The notes below the pieces were generated by a model. That model saw only the letters and a list, made by a program, of their open reading frames with translations, was not told the origin of the DNA and made no database searches. Position numbers and translations under genes: made by a program. From NCBI RefSeq assembly GCF_000336935.1, contig NZ_AOME01000070.1, positions 102,065 to 137,537 of the forward strand: a DNA stretch of 35,473 bases. The letters run 5' to 3'. The stretch is from Halococcus salifodinae DSM 8989. GTDB lineage: Archaea; Halobacteriota; Halobacteria; Halobacteriales; Halococcaceae. Below are positions 6,420 through 23,398 of the stretch, in pieces (positions within the stretch are counted from its first letter, which is position 1; the number at the start of each line of letters is the position of its first letter).

Positions 6420-6851
6420 CTAGTCCGCCGCGCCGGGCTCGGCGTCGAGCAGCGCACAAACGTCCTCGTCGGGGGCGAAGCAGTCGGGACACTGGGGTTC
6501 GCGGTCGATGATGGTGTCGAGGCGCTCGGCCACCGTTTCGTCGATCACGCTTTCGAGCTGGCTCGCCTCGGCGCGGAACTCCTCGACGTCGAGCACCTCC
6601 ACGAGGAACCGCTCGATGATGCAGTACGTCTGGAGGGAATCACGCGCGCGCTCGATCCCTTCGTCGGTCAGCGTGACGCCCTTGTACTTCTCGTGGTCGG
6701 CGAGCCCGCGAGATTCGAGCTTCCCGATCATCTCGTTGGCGCTCGCGGGGCTCACGTCGAGAGTATCGGCGAGCCTCCCGGTCGCTGCCGGGCCGTTCTC
6801 GACCTGCTGGACGAGATAGATCGCTTTCAGGTACTGCTCGGCCGTGTTCAT
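6420..6851 (-). CDS. DtxR-fold transcriptional regulator with altered metal site and Cys cluster
   Basis: 143 aa. An N-terminal winged helix (about 1-70) ends in the KYKGVTLT wing typical of the DtxR/MntR family, followed by the helical dimerisation domain. The residues that normally ligate metal appear changed: the family's paired His near 'VRHHRLLE' reads TYCIIERF, the HEEAxxxEH segment reads RAEASQLESV, and the usual C-terminal PHG motif is replaced by CPDCFAPDEDVC. No SH3-like third domain is present. The ATG at 6851 overlaps the stop of a 20-codon ORF (ATGA). A GTG three codons upstream is possible but lies inside that ORF. The gene is last in a chain with a ferritin-like gene and beside sufCBD, so iron or Fe-S status sensing is inferred. 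Confidence 0.85.
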   Translation of the reverse strand: MNTAEQYLKAIYLVQQVENGPAATGRLADTLDVSPASANEMIGKLESRGLADHEKYKGVTLTDEGIERARDSLQTYCIIERFLVEVLDVEEFRAEASQLESVIDETVAERLDTIIDREPQCPDCFAPDEDVCALLDAEPGAAD

Positions 6852-6910
6852 GGCGACCACCGCCTGTGATCGCCGTGAGCCAGTCGAAGCGGCGCTTCGA
6901 CACTGTTCAC
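6848..6910 (-). CDS. 20-codon ORF (sORF C), coupled to the DtxR-fold regulator
   Basis: The frame is GTG at 6910 to TGA at 6848-6850 and encodes MNSVEAPLRLAHGDHRRWSP. Its start overlaps the stop of sORF B (GTGA) and its stop overlaps the ATG of the regulator (ATGA). It shares 11 of 20 residues with sORF B (by hand alignment), including MN-x-VEA, R-x-AH and RRW. It could be a genuine microprotein, a translational-coupling device or a decayed duplication of the regulator's start region; about 13 of 20 codons end in G or C, lower than in flanking genes, which weakens the protein-coding case. Confidence 0.45.
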   Translation of the reverse strand: MNSVEAPLRLAHGDHRRWSP

Positions 6911-6969
6911 GCGAGCCACCTCCGGCACGGAGCGTGTGCTCGTCGATGCTTCGCTTCGACGGTGTTCAT
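6907..6969 (-). CDS. 20-codon ORF (sORF B), between the ferritin-like gene and sORF C
   Basis: The frame is ATG at 6969 to TGA at 6907-6909 and encodes MNTVEAKHRRAHAPCRRWLA. The ATG overlaps the ferritin-like stop codon (ATGA) and its own stop overlaps the GTG of sORF C (GTGA). The two ORFs are equal in length (63 nt with stop) and about 63% identical without gaps by hand count, so they look like a tandem duplication. The peptide is basic and ends in an aromatic RRW motif, unlike most haloarchaeal proteins, which are acidic. Function unknown. Confidence 0.45.
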   Translation of the reverse strand: MNTVEAKHRRAHAPCRRWLA

Positions 6970-7448
6970 TCGCGTTCCTCCATGAGTTTCGTGACCTCCT
7001 CCGCTCCCTCTGCTTCCTCCTCGCGAATCGCCGACAGCGTCCCGACGAGTCGTTCGCGCTCGATGCCGAACTCCACAGTACTGGACTCGATCGCGGCGAT
7101 GAGATCGTCGTAGAACTTGTAGGCGGTTTCCTCGTTGCAAAGCTGATCGTAGAGCACGCCGTCGGTGTCCCGATCGCGCTCGTAGTGGTCGGCGACGAGT
7201 GGTTCGATCTGCTCGAACGGGATCTGCTCGGCGTCGAGTTCGTCGATCAGCCCCGAGAGACGGTCGCGGTGCTCGGCCGATTCCTCGGCGGCGTGCTCCA
7301 GTAAGTCCTCGATTGCGGGGTCGAGATCCGCCTCGAACGACTGGTAATGCTGGTGGGCGCGCGCTTCGACGACCTCCTCCAACACGACCCCGATCTGGAG
7401 GAGACGGGCGAGCTGGTGGTCCGAGGCCACCGGCTGGCTCACGCTCAC
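6966..7448 (-). CDS. Ferritin-like / rubrerythrin-type diiron protein
   Basis: 160 aa from the GTG at 7448. It is an all-helical, Glu-rich protein with ferritin-like features: a first helix EEVVEARAHQH, an ExxH motif in EESAEHRDRL, a third helix NEETAYKFYDD and a final Glu-rich helix. The last ExxH His is not obvious, so the diiron site may be modified. The GTG was chosen because homology begins at VSQPVASDHQ and because it forms a GTGA overlap with an 18-codon ORF; a second GTG two codons on (7442) is also possible. A longer frame reaching 7565 would run through the promoter and into sufD. Position next to Suf genes and a DtxR-fold regulator suggests iron storage or handling. Confidence 0.7.
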   Translation of the reverse strand: MSVSQPVASDHQLARLLQIGVVLEEVVEARAHQHYQSFEADLDPAIEDLLEHAAEESAEHRDRLSGLIDELDAEQIPFEQIEPLVADHYERDRDTDGVLYDQLCNEETAYKFYDDLIAAIESSTVEFGIERERLVGTLSAIREEEAEGAEEVTKLMEERE

Positions 7449-7501
7449 GGGGACCACCCGGAAAAGATGCGCTCGAAAACCGATGCCTCGTGGACGTCCA
7501 T
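7445..7501 (-). CDS. 18-codon leader ORF (sORF A), coupled to the ferritin-like gene
   Basis: The frame is ATG at 7501 to TGA at 7445-7447 and encodes MDVHEASVFERIFSGWSP. A TATA-like CTTAAG is centred 26-27 nt before the ATG, the spacing at which haloarchaea start leaderless transcripts, so this would be the first codon of the mRNA. Its stop overlaps the ferritin-like GTG start (GTGA). Fifteen of 18 codons end in G or C, similar to neighbouring genes. Like sORF C it ends in W-S-P. It may be a microprotein or a leader ORF that controls translation of the following gene. Confidence 0.5.
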   Translation of the reverse strand: MDVHEASVFERIFSGWSP

Positions 7502-15501: not shown

Positions 15502-16860
15502 ATGACCACGCTCCTCCACGTGAGCGATACCCACCTCGGAAAGCGCCAGTACGGGAGCGATGTTCGGCGGAAGGACTTCGCAGACGCGTTCGAGCAAGCC
15601 ATCGACATCGCTCTCGGCACACATCCGGAGCACGACAACGACCCGGTCGACGCGGTAATTCACACCGGTGATCTGTTCGATCGGCGGACGCCGCCGCTTC
15701 CCGTGGTCAGAAACTGCATCCGAACGCTCCGCAAGCTAGAGGACGGCGAGATTCCGTTTTACGGCATCGTCGGCAACCACGAGCGGAAGATGGACGACCA
15801 ATGGCTCGACCTCATCGAGGAGACGCGGACTGCGAGCCGTCTCAATCACGTGCCGACGACGGTCGGCGATGTCGCGCTCTACGGTATCGATTCGGTGACG
15901 AAGCCAGCGTGGGACGCCACCGAATTCGACCTCGAAGAACCCGACGACGGGGACGCCTTTCGACTGCTCTGTATGCACCAGTTGCTCCACCCTCCGGTGC
16001 CCGAAATCATGGCCGACCACGCGACCGCCGAGACTATCGAAAAAGCGGACCTCACAATCGACGCACTCGCACTCGGCGACTACCACGAAGCCGAGGAGGC
16101 GGTCGTCGACGGCGTCGATGTCTGGTATCCCGGTTCGACCGAACGCTGTAGCGTGGGCGAGGAGGCCCCCCGGAGCGTGTGTCTGCTTGACATCGAGGAC
16201 GGAACGCTCAGACGGCGCGCGATCGAACTCGATACCCGGGAGTTCCGGCACGTCGCCATCGAGTTCGGCGAGGACGACGGCTACGGGCACGCAGAGCGCG
16301 TCATCGAGCGCCACGACCTCGATGGAGCGGTCGCGCTCGTCGGGCTGCGCGGCGAGCGGAGTTCGGTCACGGCGAGCGCGGTCTACGACCTCGCTACTGA
16401 GCGCGGCGCGGCCGTCTGCAAGGTCGACGACGACCGGGGACGCGAGGCGCTCGATGCCGAACACGGCCCGTCGGGAACGGTCAAGCGTCCGGACGAACTC
16501 ATCGAGGAACGCCTCGCCGAGGCGTCGCTCGGCGGCGTGACGAGAGACGTCGAGGCGCGCGTTCGCGGCGACAACGACCTCGGGACGAGCCACGTGGCCG
16601 ACTGGGCCGAAGAGCGCATCAGAGAGGCCCAGTCCACGGCATTCGACGACGGCGATTCGAGCGGCGAGACGGAACGTAACGGGGAAGCGGGCGTCGCCGA
16701 CGCTGACGCCGCTACGGTTGACGACGACACGGTCGCCGACACCGATTCCGGCACCGCCGCCGATGGCGGCGAAGACTCGCGACTCGATTCGTGGACCGGG
16801 ACGACGGAACACGACGAAAGCGGCGGAAACGAGACGGACGACGGGGAGGGACGACGGTGA
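15502..16860 (+). CDS. mre11: Mre11, DNA double-strand-break repair nuclease
   Basis: 452 aa. The phosphoesterase motifs are in order: DTHLG (Asp9, His11), GDLFD (Asp57), GNHE (Asn92, His93), MHQLLHP (His159) and GDYHEAE (Asp193, His195). The last motif is G-H-x-H in most Mre11/SbcD proteins; here the first His is Asp, a change I believe occurs in other haloarchaeal Mre11 proteins. The C-terminal 110 residues are acidic and low in complexity. Mre11 is a Mn-dependent exo/endonuclease that works with Rad50 on broken ends. It is the first gene of a four-gene operon and overlaps rad50 by 4 nt (GTGA). Confidence 0.95.
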   Translation: MTTLLHVSDTHLGKRQYGSDVRRKDFADAFEQAIDIALGTHPEHDNDPVDAVIHTGDLFDRRTPPLPVVRNCIRTLRKLEDGEIPFYGIVGNHERKMDDQWLDLIEETRTASRLNHVPTTVGDVALYGIDSVTKPAWDATEFDLEEPDDGDAFRLLCMHQLLHPPVPEIMADHATAETIEKADLTIDALALGDYHEAEEAVVDGVDVWYPGSTERCSVGEEAPRSVCLLDIEDGTLRRRAIELDTREFRHVAIEFGEDDGYGHAERVIERHDLDGAVALVGLRGERSSVTASAVYDLATERGAAVCKVDDDRGREALDAEHGPSGTVKRPDELIEERLAEASLGGVTRDVEARVRGDNDLGTSHVADWAEERIREAQSTAFDDGDSSGETERNGEAGVADADAATVDDDTVADTDSGTAADGGEDSRLDSWTGTTEHDESGGNETDDGEGRR

Positions 16861-19800
16861 AGATCAAGCGCCTGCGTCTGGAGAACGTCCGCAGCTACGA
16901 CGATCAGACAGTCGAGTTCCCCGACGGCGTCATTCTCGTTCACGGCGAGAACGGCTCGGGAAAGACGTCGCTGTTGATGGGGATCTTCGGCGGACTCTTC
17001 CTCTCGAAGATCACGAGCGTGGGGTCGAACAGCTTCACGCTCGAAGACCTCGTGCGCCGCGGCGAGGACAGCGCGTGCGTCGAACTCGTCTTCGAGGTCG
17101 GCGGCACTGCGTACACCACGGAGTGGCGGCTCCATCGGACGAGCACAGCTTCGACGGCCGAGCTCACCTCCTCAGCGCTCTCAAATCCAGTCACGGGCGT
17201 CCGTGACGTCCGCGCGGCAGTGGTCCAGCTCGTCGGGCTGGACGCCGAGGACTTCGCCAGTTCGGTCTATGTCAAGCAGGGCGAGGTCGACCGCCTCATC
17301 GACGACGAGGACCGGACGACGACCATCGATAGCTTACTTGGACTTGACGAGATAGATAACCACACCGAGCGAATGAAACAGGCCCGGCGGGCGGCCGGTC
17401 GTGTTCGGGAGGCGAACGCCGAACGGCGGCGTGGACACCAGGAGGACCGCGACGAGTACGACCGCGATGAGGCCGACTTCCAACGAGAGATCACCGCGCT
17501 CACCGATGACATCGAGGCGGCGGAGGGGGACGTCGAGACGGCCGAAGAGTATCTCGGCAGACTCAAAGACCACCGACGGGAGAAGACGGCTGCGCTCGAC
17601 CGCTACGAGGACCTCGTCGAGAAGGCGCGGGCGAAAGCCGAGCAGGTCGAGCGCGTCGAGGCAAAGCGCGGCGAACAGCAGTCGGCCATCGAAGACGCCG
17701 AAAGCGCCATCGAGGACGCAGAGGACGAAATCGAGCGTATCGAGGCAGAAATTGCCGACCTCGGCGAGGGGGTCGAGTACGACCTCGGTGACGAGGAAAG
17801 CGCCGAAGCGGCACGCGAGGGAGTCACCGCAGCGCTTACCGAGGCGAGCGCCGAGCGCGCCACCGCCGAGAGTAAACTCGAAAGCGCACGCGAAGAACAC
17901 GAACGGCTCGTCGACGAGCGCGAAGCCGCGACCGAGACGCTCGACGAACTGACTGACGAGCGTGAATCGCTCCGCGAGCGGTACGAATCCATCGAAGAGC
18001 GTGCCGAAGCGGCTGAATCGGCCATCGAGGAAGCTATCGGGAAACGAGACCGTCGCGCCGCGTCGTTCCTCCCGAAGCCCGAGGCGGCGGACGTGACCGA
18101 CGAACACCGCGAGGCGGTCGGGGAGCGTCTCGACACGCTCTGCGAGAAGCGCGAAGCGGCGACGAACGCACTGACCGAGGCACGCACGAAACGGGAGGTG
18201 AAGGCGTCGGCGCTTGAGGAGGCGCGTGCGGAACTCGCTGACCTCGAAGAGCGCCTCGATTCACTCGGCGAGCAACGTACAACGATCTGCGAGGAGATCG
18301 AGGCAGCGAAAGCCGAGGTGGAAGCCGCCGAGGGCGAACTCGCAGAGAGGGTTGAAAACCTCGCGTCGGACGGTGATGAACTCGGGATCGCCGTGTCCAT
18401 CGAAAGTCTCGGCGAGGCCAGGAACGACCACCTCCCCGCCCGCCGCGACGAACTCACCGACGCGCTCGGGGACGCAAAGAGCGCGATCGCCGCTCTGAAC
18501 ACGGAGGAACGACAGTACACCGAAGATCTCGACGAGCTACGAAATCTCGGCGAGGGCGGGACGTGTCCGACGTGCGGGCAGGCGGTCTCGGAGGCCCACG
18601 TCGAGGACGAAATCGCCGAACTGGAGGACGAGCTCGCGGACATGCGCGAGCGGAAGGCGGCCAAAGAAAGCGAGCGAGAGGCGATCGCCGCGGAACGAGC
18701 CGACCTCGACGGACTTCGTGAGCGCATCACCGAAACCATCGAGTACCGCGACGACGCTCTCGAAGCGCGTCGAGAGAAACTCGACGACCTGTGCGAACGC
18801 GAGAGCGACATCGATGCCGAGGTCGCCGAGACGAGCGGCGAGGCCGACGCTATGGGAGAAGAGATCGCGCGCATCGAAGGCCAGCTCGACGACTTCGACG
18901 AGCGCATCGCCGCGCTCGAAACCGACGAGTCCGAGGCGCGCGAGGGAGTCTCTACCGGCGAAGCCGTGATCGAGGGGTTCGAAACCGTCGCGGAGCGCCG
19001 CGAAGCGCTCGAAGTGGCCGAAACGGAGCGCGAGGACGTCGTAGACGACATCAGGGATATCGAGAACGACATCGAAGAGAAACAAAGCGAGGTCGAGTCG
19101 CTCGACGGCGCGCTCGACTCTCAACGGGGGACAGTCGAGAACCGCGAAACGGCGCTGGCCGAGGCCCGCGAGCGCGTCGAGGCTGTCGAGGAGGCGAAAT
19201 CGACGGTCGAGGGGGCCGTCGAGCGCTACGACACCATCGACGACCACGAAGCGACGATCTCTCGGGCGACCCAGCGCATTGCGGGGGCCGAGCGGGCTAT
19301 CGAGGACTTCAACGAACAGTTGGCAACGCTGGACCGCGAGCTGGCGAAGGTCGAGGAGGAACTCGACGAACACGACGGTCGGGACGAGATCGAGGCGGAG
19401 ATTCGAGAGACGGAAGCACGCATCGAGAAGCGCGAGGCGACGCGCGAGGAGTACGCCACTCGGGTGCGCCGGCTCCGTGACGAGCGAAGCAAACTCGAAA
19501 TCGAGCGCGACAACTTAGAACGGCTGAACGAGCGCATCGAACGTTGCGAGCGAAAGGAGCGCTGGGCCGACGACGTCTACCAGGAGATCGAGATGGTGCT
19601 CTCGGTGTACCAGCGCGTGAAATCCGAACTCCGTGAAGAGTACCTCGCGTACATCAACGAGTACACGAACGAGGTCTTCGGGAAAATCTACAAGAACACC
19701 GGCTACCAGCAGGTCCAGATCGAGGAGATCCACAACGAGCGCCGGGAGACCTACGACTACGCGATTCGGCTGTTGCGCGACGATGGGGCCCGCGAGAACC

Positions 19801-20174
19801 CGACGAACGCGAGCGGCGGCGAGCGCGCCATCGTCAACCTCGCGCTCCGGGCGGGCATCTATCGGCTCATCGCTGAGATGGGTGGTGGCGACCGGAGTAC
19901 GCTGCCGCCGTTTATTCTCGACGAGCCGACGACGTTCCTGGACGAAGGCCACGTGGGCCAGCTCGAACGAATGCTCCGGACGCTCGACGACTGGGACGTC
20001 CCGCAGGTAATCGTCGTGAGCCACGACGAGCGGTTGATTCACGGTGCGGACCACGAGTGCGCCGTGAGGAAGGACGCCGCGACGAAGACGAGCCGCGCCG
20101 AGATGCACGTCGCGGGTCAGTCTCGGGGCGCTGATGGCGGGGATGTCGGCGTCGCATCGGGAGGTGACGACTGA
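16857..20174 (+). CDS. rad50: Rad50, SMC-like ATPase of the Mre11 complex
   Basis: 1105 aa from a GTG at 16857 that overlaps the mre11 stop. The N-terminal ATPase half has Walker A GENGSGKTS (30-38). Long Glu/Arg-rich coiled coils (about 190-560 and 590-900) flank a zinc hook, CPTC at 570-573. The C-terminal half carries the ABC signature NASGGERAIVN (about 984) and Walker B FILDEPTTFLDEG (about 1019). It tethers DNA ends and gates Mre11. At 1105 aa it has longer arms than the roughly 880-900 aa Rad50 proteins of many archaea. The TGA is followed directly by the nurA GTG. Confidence 0.96.
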   Translation: MKIKRLRLENVRSYDDQTVEFPDGVILVHGENGSGKTSLLMGIFGGLFLSKITSVGSNSFTLEDLVRRGEDSACVELVFEVGGTAYTTEWRLHRTSTASTAELTSSALSNPVTGVRDVRAAVVQLVGLDAEDFASSVYVKQGEVDRLIDDEDRTTTIDSLLGLDEIDNHTERMKQARRAAGRVREANAERRRGHQEDRDEYDRDEADFQREITALTDDIEAAEGDVETAEEYLGRLKDHRREKTAALDRYEDLVEKARAKAEQVERVEAKRGEQQSAIEDAESAIEDAEDEIERIEAEIADLGEGVEYDLGDEESAEAAREGVTAALTEASAERATAESKLESAREEHERLVDEREAATETLDELTDERESLRERYESIEERAEAAESAIEEAIGKRDRRAASFLPKPEAADVTDEHREAVGERLDTLCEKREAATNALTEARTKREVKASALEEARAELADLEERLDSLGEQRTTICEEIEAAKAEVEAAEGELAERVENLASDGDELGIAVSIESLGEARNDHLPARRDELTDALGDAKSAIAALNTEERQYTEDLDELRNLGEGGTCPTCGQAVSEAHVEDEIAELEDELADMRERKAAKESEREAIAAERADLDGLRERITETIEYRDDALEARREKLDDLCERESDIDAEVAETSGEADAMGEEIARIEGQLDDFDERIAALETDESEAREGVSTGEAVIEGFETVAERREALEVAETEREDVVDDIRDIENDIEEKQSEVESLDGALDSQRGTVENRETALAEARERVEAVEEAKSTVEGAVERYDTIDDHEATISRATQRIAGAERAIEDFNEQLATLDRELAKVEEELDEHDGRDEIEAEIRETEARIEKREATREEYATRVRRLRDERSKLEIERDNLERLNERIERCERKERWADDVYQEIEMVLSVYQRVKSELREEYLAYINEYTNEVFGKIYKNTGYQQVQIEEIHNERRETYDYAIRLLRDDGARENPTNASGGERAIVNLALRAGIYRLIAEMGGGDRSTLPPFILDEPTTFLDEGHVGQLERMLRTLDDWDVPQVIVVSHDERLIHGADHECAVRKDAATKTSRAEMHVAGQSRGADGGDVGVASGGDD

Positions 20175-21464
20175 GTGGACCGGAACGCGTTCGGTGTCGT
20201 CAGACAGCTGTTCGAGCACATCGATGAGAGCGTGCCGGGCGAGCCGGTCTCTCAGACGGAGTACGCCCGTCGCCTGTTTTCCTTGCTCGGGCGTGACGGC
20301 GGGCAGGTGGAGGCACTTGGCGAAGTGGACTGTATGAAGACGCGGACGACCGACCTCGGCACGTGGAGCGAGGATCCGTGGGCCGAGCACACGTACGGTC
20401 TCGACGCCAGCACCACCCGGCCGATGGAGTACAACAACGGGCTCGTCGTCGATACCGCGAACGCGAAACTCGGCGTCTCGGGTGCGAGCGGCGACCGTGC
20501 GCTCGAACGGGCGGGAACGATACGCTCGGTCGTGTACTTCGACGACGATGAGAGTCGCTTTTTCACCAGCGCGTTCGAGGACGGGAGCGGGTACGTCGAC
20601 GGCGAAGTGCTCGCCGTCCCCGGAACCGCCGACCGAGCGGCAGACGTCACGCGGTGGATATCGACGGCAGCACAGCGCCTCGCCGAGGGCCGACACGCCC
20701 TCGAACACGCGGAGACCATCGATGGAGCGTTGTTCATCGATGGGTCGACCTATCCGCTGGGTGTCCTCTACTGGCTCATGCTCGAAACCGTCGACCGGAT
20801 GCCGGTGCCGGACACGTGGGAGAAACCACGAGAGATCGTCGCAAACTATGTCGACCTAGTCGACGCCCTCTACGAGAAGGACCTGCCGGTGCTCGGAGTC
20901 GTGAAGACCTCGATGACCGGCCAGGTTCTCGACGCGCTCGAAGCGAAGATCGACCGTCACGATCTCACCGACGAAGACGGGCACACGCTCGACGTCCCGT
21001 GGCGACGCGACCACCAGTTCGTCGGCGAGGTGCTGCGCGACGGGAGCCTGAACCACCTGACGTACACCTCGTGGCTCGTCCACGAGCAGAGCATCGATGG
21101 CCGGCCGTTCGAGATGTTCTCGACAGTCGCAGACCAGTTGAGACACGGCGACCCAGCCGACTACCGCCGTGCGTTCTTTTACGTCCGCCTGCCGAAGACG
21201 GGTGGCGTGTTTCGCGTCGAGACTCCGCTGCTGATGCTCGAAGACGACGAGCGCCGCGGGGCAATCCAGCGAAAGGCGCTGAAGGAGATCGCCCGGAGCA
21301 GGGACGTTCCCCAAGCGGTCAAGCGTGCTGACCGCATCGCCCGCATCAGTCCTGACAACCGCGAGACGATCCGTGAATTCATCACGTCAGCCGAGAGCTA
21401 CCACGATTACAACGAGGATGGCCGCTGGAAGGACATCGAGGACCCGAATGAGGTAACCCAATGA
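20175..21464 (+). CDS. nurA: NurA 5'-3' nuclease
   Basis: 429 aa. The GTG at 20175 follows the rad50 stop with no gap. NurA-type RNase-H-like fold acidic residues are seen in NGLVVDTANAKLGVSG (about 93-108) and GALFIDGSTYPLGVLYW (about 185-200). A late HTYTSW/YVRLPKTGGVFRVE block is also typical. NurA resects 5' strands together with the HerA translocase after Mre11-Rad50 has opened the end; neighbour order supports the assignment. The stop overlaps the herA ATG (ATGA). Confidence 0.88.
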   Translation: MDRNAFGVVRQLFEHIDESVPGEPVSQTEYARRLFSLLGRDGGQVEALGEVDCMKTRTTDLGTWSEDPWAEHTYGLDASTTRPMEYNNGLVVDTANAKLGVSGASGDRALERAGTIRSVVYFDDDESRFFTSAFEDGSGYVDGEVLAVPGTADRAADVTRWISTAAQRLAEGRHALEHAETIDGALFIDGSTYPLGVLYWLMLETVDRMPVPDTWEKPREIVANYVDLVDALYEKDLPVLGVVKTSMTGQVLDALEAKIDRHDLTDEDGHTLDVPWRRDHQFVGEVLRDGSLNHLTYTSWLVHEQSIDGRPFEMFSTVADQLRHGDPADYRRAFFYVRLPKTGGVFRVETPLLMLEDDERRGAIQRKALKEIARSRDVPQAVKRADRIARISPDNRETIREFITSAESYHDYNEDGRWKDIEDPNEVTQ

Positions 21465-23398
21465 GCGACAATCCACTTGAGGACGACCCCTTCGAAACGG
21501 ACGACGACCGCACCGACGACACTACTGGAACCGATATCAACGACGGGACGGACGCGACCGGAACCGTCGACGACTCGGAGGAGGACAGCGAGCAGGCTGG
21601 GACGGTGCTGTCCGAACAGCGTGTCCCGAACTCGGCCACCGATCTCGGTTCCCGTGAGATGGGCCACGTGCTCGCGAGCGAGACAATCCACGTTAGCCGG
21701 GACGAGTACACGGTCAACGCCTACGTCGCCACCGAGCGCCGTGATCGAGTGCGGGTCGGCGATTACGTTCAGATTCCGTATCCCGACAGCGAGGACGTCC
21801 TGTTCGCCGTTGTCGACGGGTTGCGCTACGAGCCATACACCGACCTCGACGATCGCTCTGACACGCACAACCTGATCAACCGCGAATCCGCGCTCGACGA
21901 GTCCGAGTTCGTGCTGGTCGCCGAACTCGAACCGATCACGATCCTCTCCGTCGATGGCGACGCCGAGGATGCGGGCGAACAGCATAAAGAGAGCAGCGAG
22001 GCGCTCTCACGGGGTATCGTCAACAAAGTCCCGAAGCCGAACACGGGCGTCGAACTCACCGAAGACGAAGCCTACCTGCGCGAGGGGCTGAACATCCCAC
22101 ACTCGGGCGTCTTCTGTGGGTATCTCTCGGTCGGCGGCAGCGCGATGGAAGTGAACGATGAGCCGTTCCCTTACTACCTCGCCAACCCAGGCATCGGTCT
22201 CGATGGGGAAATTGAGCCGGGCGAACCGGCTGTCTTTCGACACGCGCTCGTCGCCGGATCGACCGGAAAGGGGAAGACCCACTTCGCAAAGAACCTCCTC
22301 CGGCAATTCATGGGAGAGAAACGCTATCCGATAGAGAACCACGAAACCGGCGAGCTCGAACGAAGTCGGCTGAACGTCGTCGTCTTCGACCCCGAGAACG
22401 AATACTGGCAGATGCGCGAGGACGGCGACCTGCCCGACGGGGCACGACAGCGACTCGAACGGAAGGGCATCGAGGTCGGCGGCGTCGATGATTTGGAGGT
22501 GTTCGTGCCCGACGTGGCGAACACGACCGCCCCGGCAACGGGCCAGAGTCGATCGTTTTCGATCCCCTTCTCGCTGGTGCGCTCGCGGCCGGAGCTATTG
22601 ATGCCATACGAACCAACCCCTGTAACCCGCGGCGCGCTCGAAGGCTGTCTCTCCTCGTACTTCGAACAAGAGGGTGGGACACCGACCTACGAACGATTCA
22701 GGAACTATCTTGACGCAAACGTCGACGAAAATAGTTCACTCAGGCAACAGCACGAGATCGCCGATGGGACCTGGAGCGCGGTCATGCGTCGGGTGAAGGG
22801 TGGAGACGGAGCCTTCGGTGATGTGTTCGATGGTGGGGGCGGCGGAAGCACCGGCGCGAACCCGCTCAACGAGATCTCGGGCGAGCTGTTCCGCGAGGGA
22901 CAGGTGACGGTGATTCCGACCGGCCACCTGCGTGGCGGGAAAGAAGAACTCGTCGTGCTCTCGGCCCTTTCTTACGTCATCGAGAATAAGATATCCGATC
23001 ACGATGTCGATAGCCACGTCAAAGACACGCCGCTGCTTCTGAGCGTCGACGAGGCGCACAACTACCTCTCGGGAGCGAAGACGCTGCGTGGGAAGTATAT
23101 CATCGAGAGAGCGCGTGAGGCGGCCAAGCAGGGCCGAAAGGACAAACTCGGATTGTTGATGATTACCCAGAACCCCGAGGACATCGACGACGAGGTTCTC
23201 AAGCAGACGAACACGAACGTCTTCCTCGGTCTCCGCGACGAGGTGGTTGAGAAAGTGCCGTCCGTACCTGCGGAGTTCAAGCGCGATATCCCGAAGTTCA
23301 GCAAGGGACAGGCGGTCGTCAAGGCACCGGACGTCGAGGCGGTAGAGGTCATTGGTCTACCGTACTGCGTGACGAAACACGGCAAGCATGACAACTGA
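21461..23398 (+). CDS. herA: HerA bidirectional DNA translocase
   Basis: 645 aa. An acidic disordered N-terminus (1-60) is followed by a HAS-barrel region (about 60-200) and the FtsK/HerA-type ATPase core: Walker A GSTGKGKT (about 265-272) and Walker B LLLSVDEAHNYL (about 525-536). A late LMITQNPEDIDDEVLKQ segment looks like sensor/arginine-finger region. HerA forms a hexamer that pumps DNA into NurA. It is the last gene of the operon. A 96-nt gap with a new promoter precedes pan. Confidence 0.93.
   Translation: MSDNPLEDDPFETDDDRTDDTTGTDINDGTDATGTVDDSEEDSEQAGTVLSEQRVPNSATDLGSREMGHVLASETIHVSRDEYTVNAYVATERRDRVRVGDYVQIPYPDSEDVLFAVVDGLRYEPYTDLDDRSDTHNLINRESALDESEFVLVAELEPITILSVDGDAEDAGEQHKESSEALSRGIVNKVPKPNTGVELTEDEAYLREGLNIPHSGVFCGYLSVGGSAMEVNDEPFPYYLANPGIGLDGEIEPGEPAVFRHALVAGSTGKGKTHFAKNLLRQFMGEKRYPIENHETGELERSRLNVVVFDPENEYWQMREDGDLPDGARQRLERKGIEVGGVDDLEVFVPDVANTTAPATGQSRSFSIPFSLVRSRPELLMPYEPTPVTRGALEGCLSSYFEQEGGTPTYERFRNYLDANVDENSSLRQQHEIADGTWSAVMRRVKGGDGAFGDVFDGGGGGSTGANPLNEISGELFREGQVTVIPTGHLRGGKEELVVLSALSYVIENKISDHDVDSHVKDTPLLLSVDEAHNYLSGAKTLRGKYIIERAREAAKQGRKDKLGLLMITQNPEDIDDEVLKQTNTNVFLGLRDEVVEKVPSVPAEFKRDIPKFSKGQAVVKAPDVEAVEVIGLPYCVTKHGKHDN

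Follow-up and report, generated by a model that had tools for sequence, protein, structure and literature searches.

Results

Organization of the operon

We analysed a stretch of 35,473 nucleotides from Halococcus salifodinae DSM 8989 (contig NZ_AOME01000070.1, positions 102,065 to 137,537), called here the window. On its minus strand, 3' of sufC-sufB-sufD (SufC was labelled from its ABC-ATPase motifs, and sufB and sufD were identified separately), lies an operon composed, in this order, of a leader ORF, a ferritin-fold gene, two mini-ORFs and a gene for a DtxR/MntR-type regulator. The leader mini-ORF (7501-7445), which has equivalents in relatives, comprises 18 codons for MDVHEASVFERIFSGWSP followed by a stop, and overlaps through GTGA the GTG start of the gene for the 160-residue ferritin-fold protein (7448-6966). 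The stop of the latter overlaps through ATGA the start of mini-ORF 1 (6969-6907; 20 codons, MNTVEAKHRRAHAPCRRWLA and stop), a junction at which relatives also have relays, and mini-ORF 2 (6910-6848; 20 codons, VNSVEAPLRLAHGDHRRWSP and stop) is connected by GTGA to mini-ORF 1 and by ATGA to the regulator gene (6851-6420, 143 aa). The junctions therefore read GTGA, ATGA, GTGA and ATGA. When the sequence was re-read, the coordinates that a first-pass annotation had given for the five ORFs proved exact, and the four NTGA junctions were all present where it had placed them.

A TATA-like box, CTTAAG (7530-7525), precedes the leader, its first base being 29 nt 5' of the leader ATG. Shine-Dalgarno (SD) or SD-like motifs are found on the same strand 5' of the ferritin-like start (GGGTGG, 7454-7459), 5' of mini-ORF 1 (GGAGG, 6977-6981), at the 3' end of mini-ORF 1 (GGAGGTGG, 6916-6923) and 5' of the regulator start (GGCGGTGG, 6857-6864), so that each inner mini-ORF terminates in such a motif. 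The similar C-terminal residues of the two mini-ORFs (RRWLA and RRWSP) are due to this arrangement, since the SD motif and the overlap dictate them.

Both DtxR-family domains, Fe_dep_repress (PF01325, 5e-18) and Fe_dep_repr_C (PF02742, 1e-10), were detected above the cut-off in the regulator, whose solved relatives are MntR, IdeR and DtxR. In Haloferax, HVO_0863 bears the name TroR (PMC11349517). Since Haloferax loci contain the suf genes, the ferritin-like gene and then the regulator, the protein studied here is likely the TroR orthologue, a link made by gene position and not by an accession match. The ferritin-like protein gave a weak match to PF02915, below the cut-off. Its AlphaFold model, obtained from 21 orthologues, has five helices and a pLDDT of 85, and the best Foldseek matches of this model are Dps and bacterioferritin (TM about 0.75, E about 0.01). 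The assignment to the ferritin fold, the four-helix bundle of ferritin, Dps and bacterioferritin, is thus sound, and the function is putative.

Tandem origin of the two inner mini-ORFs

The inner mini-ORFs are related to each other, which had escaped the first-pass annotation: a 59-nt unit is present twice in tandem, and its two copies have diverged to 37 identical positions out of 59. Within it, a 36-nt direct repeat (minus strand, 6968-6933 and 6909-6874, spacing 59) is 78% identical between copies, and each copy contains a GTCGA...TCGAC hairpin. The second relay of the window was born by tandem duplication of this unit. The first 14 nt of the two mini-ORFs resemble the start of the regulator gene (12/14 and 10/14 alike), from which they may derive. 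Searched against its own genome, the 59-nt unit matched significantly at the native locus only, and we have rejected the idea of a mobile repeat on the ground of this single location. Likewise, a known RNA element was rejected, no credible Rfam match being obtained. The double unit folds better than its shuffled versions (z -2.4). In a close relative, the spacer between the ferritin-like and regulator genes is 160 nt long and carries two palindromic blocks; it still consists of one 55-codon relay ORF.

We evaluated how often such a chain arises by chance in the window alone, by shuffling the 114-nt spacer with its length allowed to vary by one. Of the trials, 15% yielded an all-overlap chain and 2.5% a two-link one; with spacers of such size taken singly, a chain formed in 15-24% of shuffles. 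The chain is less improbable than it seems, partly because the ATGA at the regulator start follows automatically from a conserved Met-Asn. The statement that chance would rarely produce four such junctions was therefore too strong for the window, which by itself is suggestive and not decisive. We count the observation as real because relatives conserve it, and absence from close relatives was the result that the first-pass annotation had itself named as speaking against its proposal.

Spacers between the ferritin-like and regulator genes are mostly bridged by small ORFs throughout Halobacteria

We collected 183 loci with an adjacent ferritin-regulator pair, which fall into 101 lineage clusters and have spacers of -4 to 184 nt. 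Considering strict -4 overlaps throughout, the two genes overlap directly by 4 nt in 61 loci, are connected by one relay in 105 and by two relays in four. The 13 others were inspected singly: they have gaps of at most 8 nt, relays joined at -1, +1 or +2 nt, or a start that had been mis-set. Among these failures of the strict chain, two distant loci overlap directly once their mis-set start is corrected, one locus has a -1 overlap, two have relays that end 2 nt short, two have relays that begin past a 1-nt gap, and one has an 8-nt gap. We did not find in the 183 loci any untranslated ferritin-regulator spacer longer than 8 nt.

Among the 58 lineages with a spacer, 53 have strict relay ORFs against 13.6 expected (P about 1e-30, a value that overstates independence as the lineages are related). 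In spite of relatedness the excess over chance is large; when only mutually dissimilar spacers were kept, 16 of 20 were strict relays. Single relays go with a gap of 1 modulo 3 and pairs of relays with a gap of 0 modulo 3, and this shift of frame offset with zero, one and two relays is what the relay model predicts. Relays at this junction are from 6 to 63 codons long. An SD-like motif precedes the regulator in 86 of 93 lineages and the ferritin start in 64 of 101 (background 26% in both cases), and it is present 5' of the relay, at the site corresponding to that of mini-ORF 1, in 51 of the 53 relay lineages. Small ORFs and overlaps are thus kept across Halobacteria while length and sequence change, which strongly supports the suggestion of the first-pass annotation that the tiny ORFs act as translational relays.

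The frame of the proposed relays is conserved but not their peptides

Close pairs differ at 293 codons of the relay peptides; 251 of these changes are non-synonymous and 42 synonymous, compared with 342 non-synonymous among 650 changed codons in the neighbouring 3' end of the ferritin-like gene. Between genera, both the sequence and the length of the relays are unrelated, and leader peptides are unrelated as well. These comparisons indicate that the relay frame is under selection and the peptide is not. The first-pass annotation had also considered that the tiny ORFs encode microproteins and proposed to look for the peptide sequences in relatives; relay peptides diverge freely there, so this reading is disfavoured.

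The leader ORF and its predicted leaderless start

A TATA-like box is located 28-31 nt 5' of the start in 88 of 101 lineages; at a distance of 29-31 nt, this start is that of a coupled mini-ORF in 67 lineages, where the leader overlaps the ferritin start, and that of the ferritin-like gene itself in 21. With a stricter scoring, the box is found at the true offset in 86 of 101 lineages and at displaced offsets in 8-26, i.e. far above the controls. In Haloferax, 72% of protein-coding transcripts are leaderless (PMC4983044). The spacing of the box is that of leaderless transcripts and supports the prediction that the leader start is leaderless. The first-pass annotation had made the same proposal, and its idea agrees with the spacing in most relatives.

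In one Halococcus, 5 of 457 operon-first genes are preceded by a box and a leader ORF coupled in this way, compared with 0-1 at control offsets; such leaders are therefore uncommon. Other coupled leader ORFs with a TATA box in that genome, predicted to be leaderless, encode, for example, MVPDRRPAAGEERP and MVASPPERLA, each followed by a stop.

The leader ORFs are also enriched in the motif G[TC]ATCG (7470-7490 in the window): of 66 dissimilar lineages, 23 have it against 1.4 expected, mostly 9-16 nt past the predicted transcript start and mostly in frame as GTA-TCG or GCA-TCG. This enrichment suggests an additional role of the leader, and the motif may be an operator, an RNA element or a codon effect.

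Probable relays between other gene pairs

In 800 kb of a related Halococcus, the 188 same-strand spacers of 10-200 nt are distributed over the three frames as 73/53/62, without preference. In the same 800 kb, a blind search found about a dozen relay chains, the ferritin-regulator chain among them. We traced three candidate pairs in relatives, the genes being named from reading the sequences and not from a family search. Between mevalonate kinase and isopentenyl phosphate kinase (IPK), there are 20 direct overlaps, 8 relays and 2 loci with neither; these relays are single ORFs of 19-144 codons, the one of 144 codons belonging to the genome of the window. Between AhbA/B-like and SirC-like genes, we counted 6 direct overlaps, 13 relays of up to 106 codons and 4 loci with neither. 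The longest spacers of this pair share similar stretches, as though a repeat had entered them without breaking the frame. Both pairs exceed chance (P 3e-4 and 6e-6, uncorrected for relatedness), and DUF655-KsgA, with relays in 6 of 27 loci, is at chance level (P 0.64). Since two pairs obey the rule and the third does not, the relay pattern is not an artefact of base composition. A relay rule valid for all spacers of the genome was rejected, in view of the flat frame offsets and of DUF655-KsgA. SufB-SufD was uninformative as a control, its spacers being mostly very short and the usable loci few.

Discussion

The arrangement described here is best explained by a continuous transfer of ribosomes along the operon. 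A ribosome would enter a leaderless mRNA at its 5' end, on the leader ORF, stop at the GTGA of the leader and reinitiate on the ferritin-like gene; after the ATGA of this gene, repeated termination-reinitiation across the relay mini-ORFs would deliver it to the regulator. Selection would maintain an unbroken frame-to-frame contact and, where reinitiation takes place, an SD motif; the peptides would be by-products. Reinitiation in Haloferax is abolished by separations of 22-23 nt (PMC10666635), and an SD motif there is inactive de novo in 5'-UTRs, yet it assists reinitiation at overlaps (PMC6728339). It follows that an operon-internal gene needs a ribosome arriving from directly upstream, and, as this handover is needed, any spacer that arises must be translated. 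The comparison of relatives shows that frames, overlaps, box spacing and SD motifs are conserved and that the peptides are unconstrained. On this comparative ground we consider it very probable that the three mini-ORFs are translational relays which keep ribosomes contiguous; we infer from it the translation of the mini-ORFs, the leaderless state of the mRNA and the dependence of the regulator on relay translation. Many lineages have a direct -4 overlap and need no relay, so that a relay is not indispensable.

Stop codons are rare in GC-rich DNA, so short ATGA-bounded frames are expected, and indeed the shuffling of a single spacer yields a chain often enough for one locus to be fortuitous. 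The comparative test nevertheless refutes chance as an explanation: the number of relay lineages is several times that expected and the frame distribution is flat in the genome-wide and gene-pair controls, which leaves this reading hardly credible. That the mini-ORFs produce functional microproteins is very improbable. Within Halococcus, the leader peptide is conserved over its first half (E-A-S-V/I-F), but the third positions of this stretch are also conserved, which indicates a nucleic-acid constraint; relay peptides show neither constraint nor similarity between genera, and the SD motif together with the overlap accounts for their W-S/L-P/A endings.

Two regulatory roles could be imagined for the same elements. 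Each additional termination-reinitiation step might lose or gain ribosomes and thereby tune the amount of regulator relative to the ferritin-like protein; relatives with zero, one or two relays and SD motifs of differing strength would fit this idea, as does the variation of reinitiation efficiency among gene pairs (PMC10666635). However, close relatives differ widely in how many relays they have and how long these are, without an evident optimum, and we consider such a role unlikely, though less so than a metal-responsive attenuator, in which the leader ORF or the RNA structure of the relays would sense iron or manganese and control downstream translation. The folding of the double unit, the G[TC]ATCG enrichment and the metal dependence of the regulator, predicted from its family, make an attenuator conceivable, but it is improbable given the lack of a credible Rfam match, the relays of unrelated sequence and length between genera, and the many lineages that have no relay.

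The relay reading is closest to the termination-reinitiation of haloarchaea (Huber et al. 2019, PMC6728339; Huber et al. 2023, PMC10666635), with which the NTGA overlap, the internal SD motif and the group of organisms are shared. There, pairs at -4 nt were shown by experiment to be strictly coupled, with a steep dependence on distance. Coupled genes have an NTGA or 1-nt overlap, or a gap of a few nucleotides, and an SD motif at the reinitiation start; we found both features here. However, in the pairs of Huber et al. two full genes touch, whereas here a spacer is bridged by non-conserved mini-ORFs, single or in tandem. Both papers class pairs with longer spacers as uncoupled, and a term search of the 2023 article (PMC10666635) returned no mention of small ORFs.

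The leader ORF resembles the leaderless RTGA small ORFs of mycobacteria (Shell et al. 2015, PMC4633059) in its overlap and in a kept architecture with a changing peptide. The latter are, however, bacterial, only 5'-terminal and documented by one two-species example of conservation (PMC4633059), whereas here there are also internal relays between two genes, and the conservation extends over about a hundred lineages. In the leader, too, the architecture is conserved and the peptide is not. Mycobacteria also possess MIRUs, a tandem case of which is found at senX3-regX3. These short repeated units, which can be in tandem, contain an ORF coupled by -4 nt to the next gene (reviewed in PMC12548453), like the 59-nt unit. 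MIRUs are dispersed and apparently mobile (PMC12548453), whereas the 59-nt unit, which has the -4 nt coupled internal ORF and is not a dispersed multi-copy repeat, was duplicated locally in tandem and has no other significant copies in its genome; most relays are unrelated to each other in sequence. Finally, mgtQ, located between mgtC and mgtB, is a small ORF in an intergenic region and promotes translation of the gene that follows it (PMC8092293), as proposed for the relays, but it acts via acidic residues and alternative RNA structures, so that its sequence matters (PMC8092293); the sequence of the relays is free, their changed codons being mostly non-synonymous and not those of conserved functional residues. 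We found no description of internal relay ORFs conserved across a class in a limited literature search, which is weak evidence of novelty. The proposed mechanism is the known termination-reinitiation, and the internal conserved relays would be a new form of this coupling.

More generally, haloarchaeal operons could hold a class of reading frames selected solely for translatability, insertions of 6 to 144 codons at former 4-nt overlaps surviving only as stop-to-start relays; we see this generalization as evenly balanced between right and wrong. If it is true, natural spacers would give a genome-wide read-out of the genes that truly need translational coupling. The gap modulo 3 together with the overlaps constitutes a purely genomic coupling test for neighbouring genes. 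The relays also bring evolutionary support to the contact requirement of archaeal termination-reinitiation, previously known from reporters, and call for caution, as many profiled short ORFs may be conserved for being translated and not for their peptides. Synthesis of a metal regulator would be tied to that of a ferritin-fold protein throughout Halobacteria.

Elsewhere in the window, on the plus strand (15502-23398), Mre11- and Rad50-like genes are followed by two more genes with junctions of -4, 0 and -4 nt; this cluster is a directly coupled operon.
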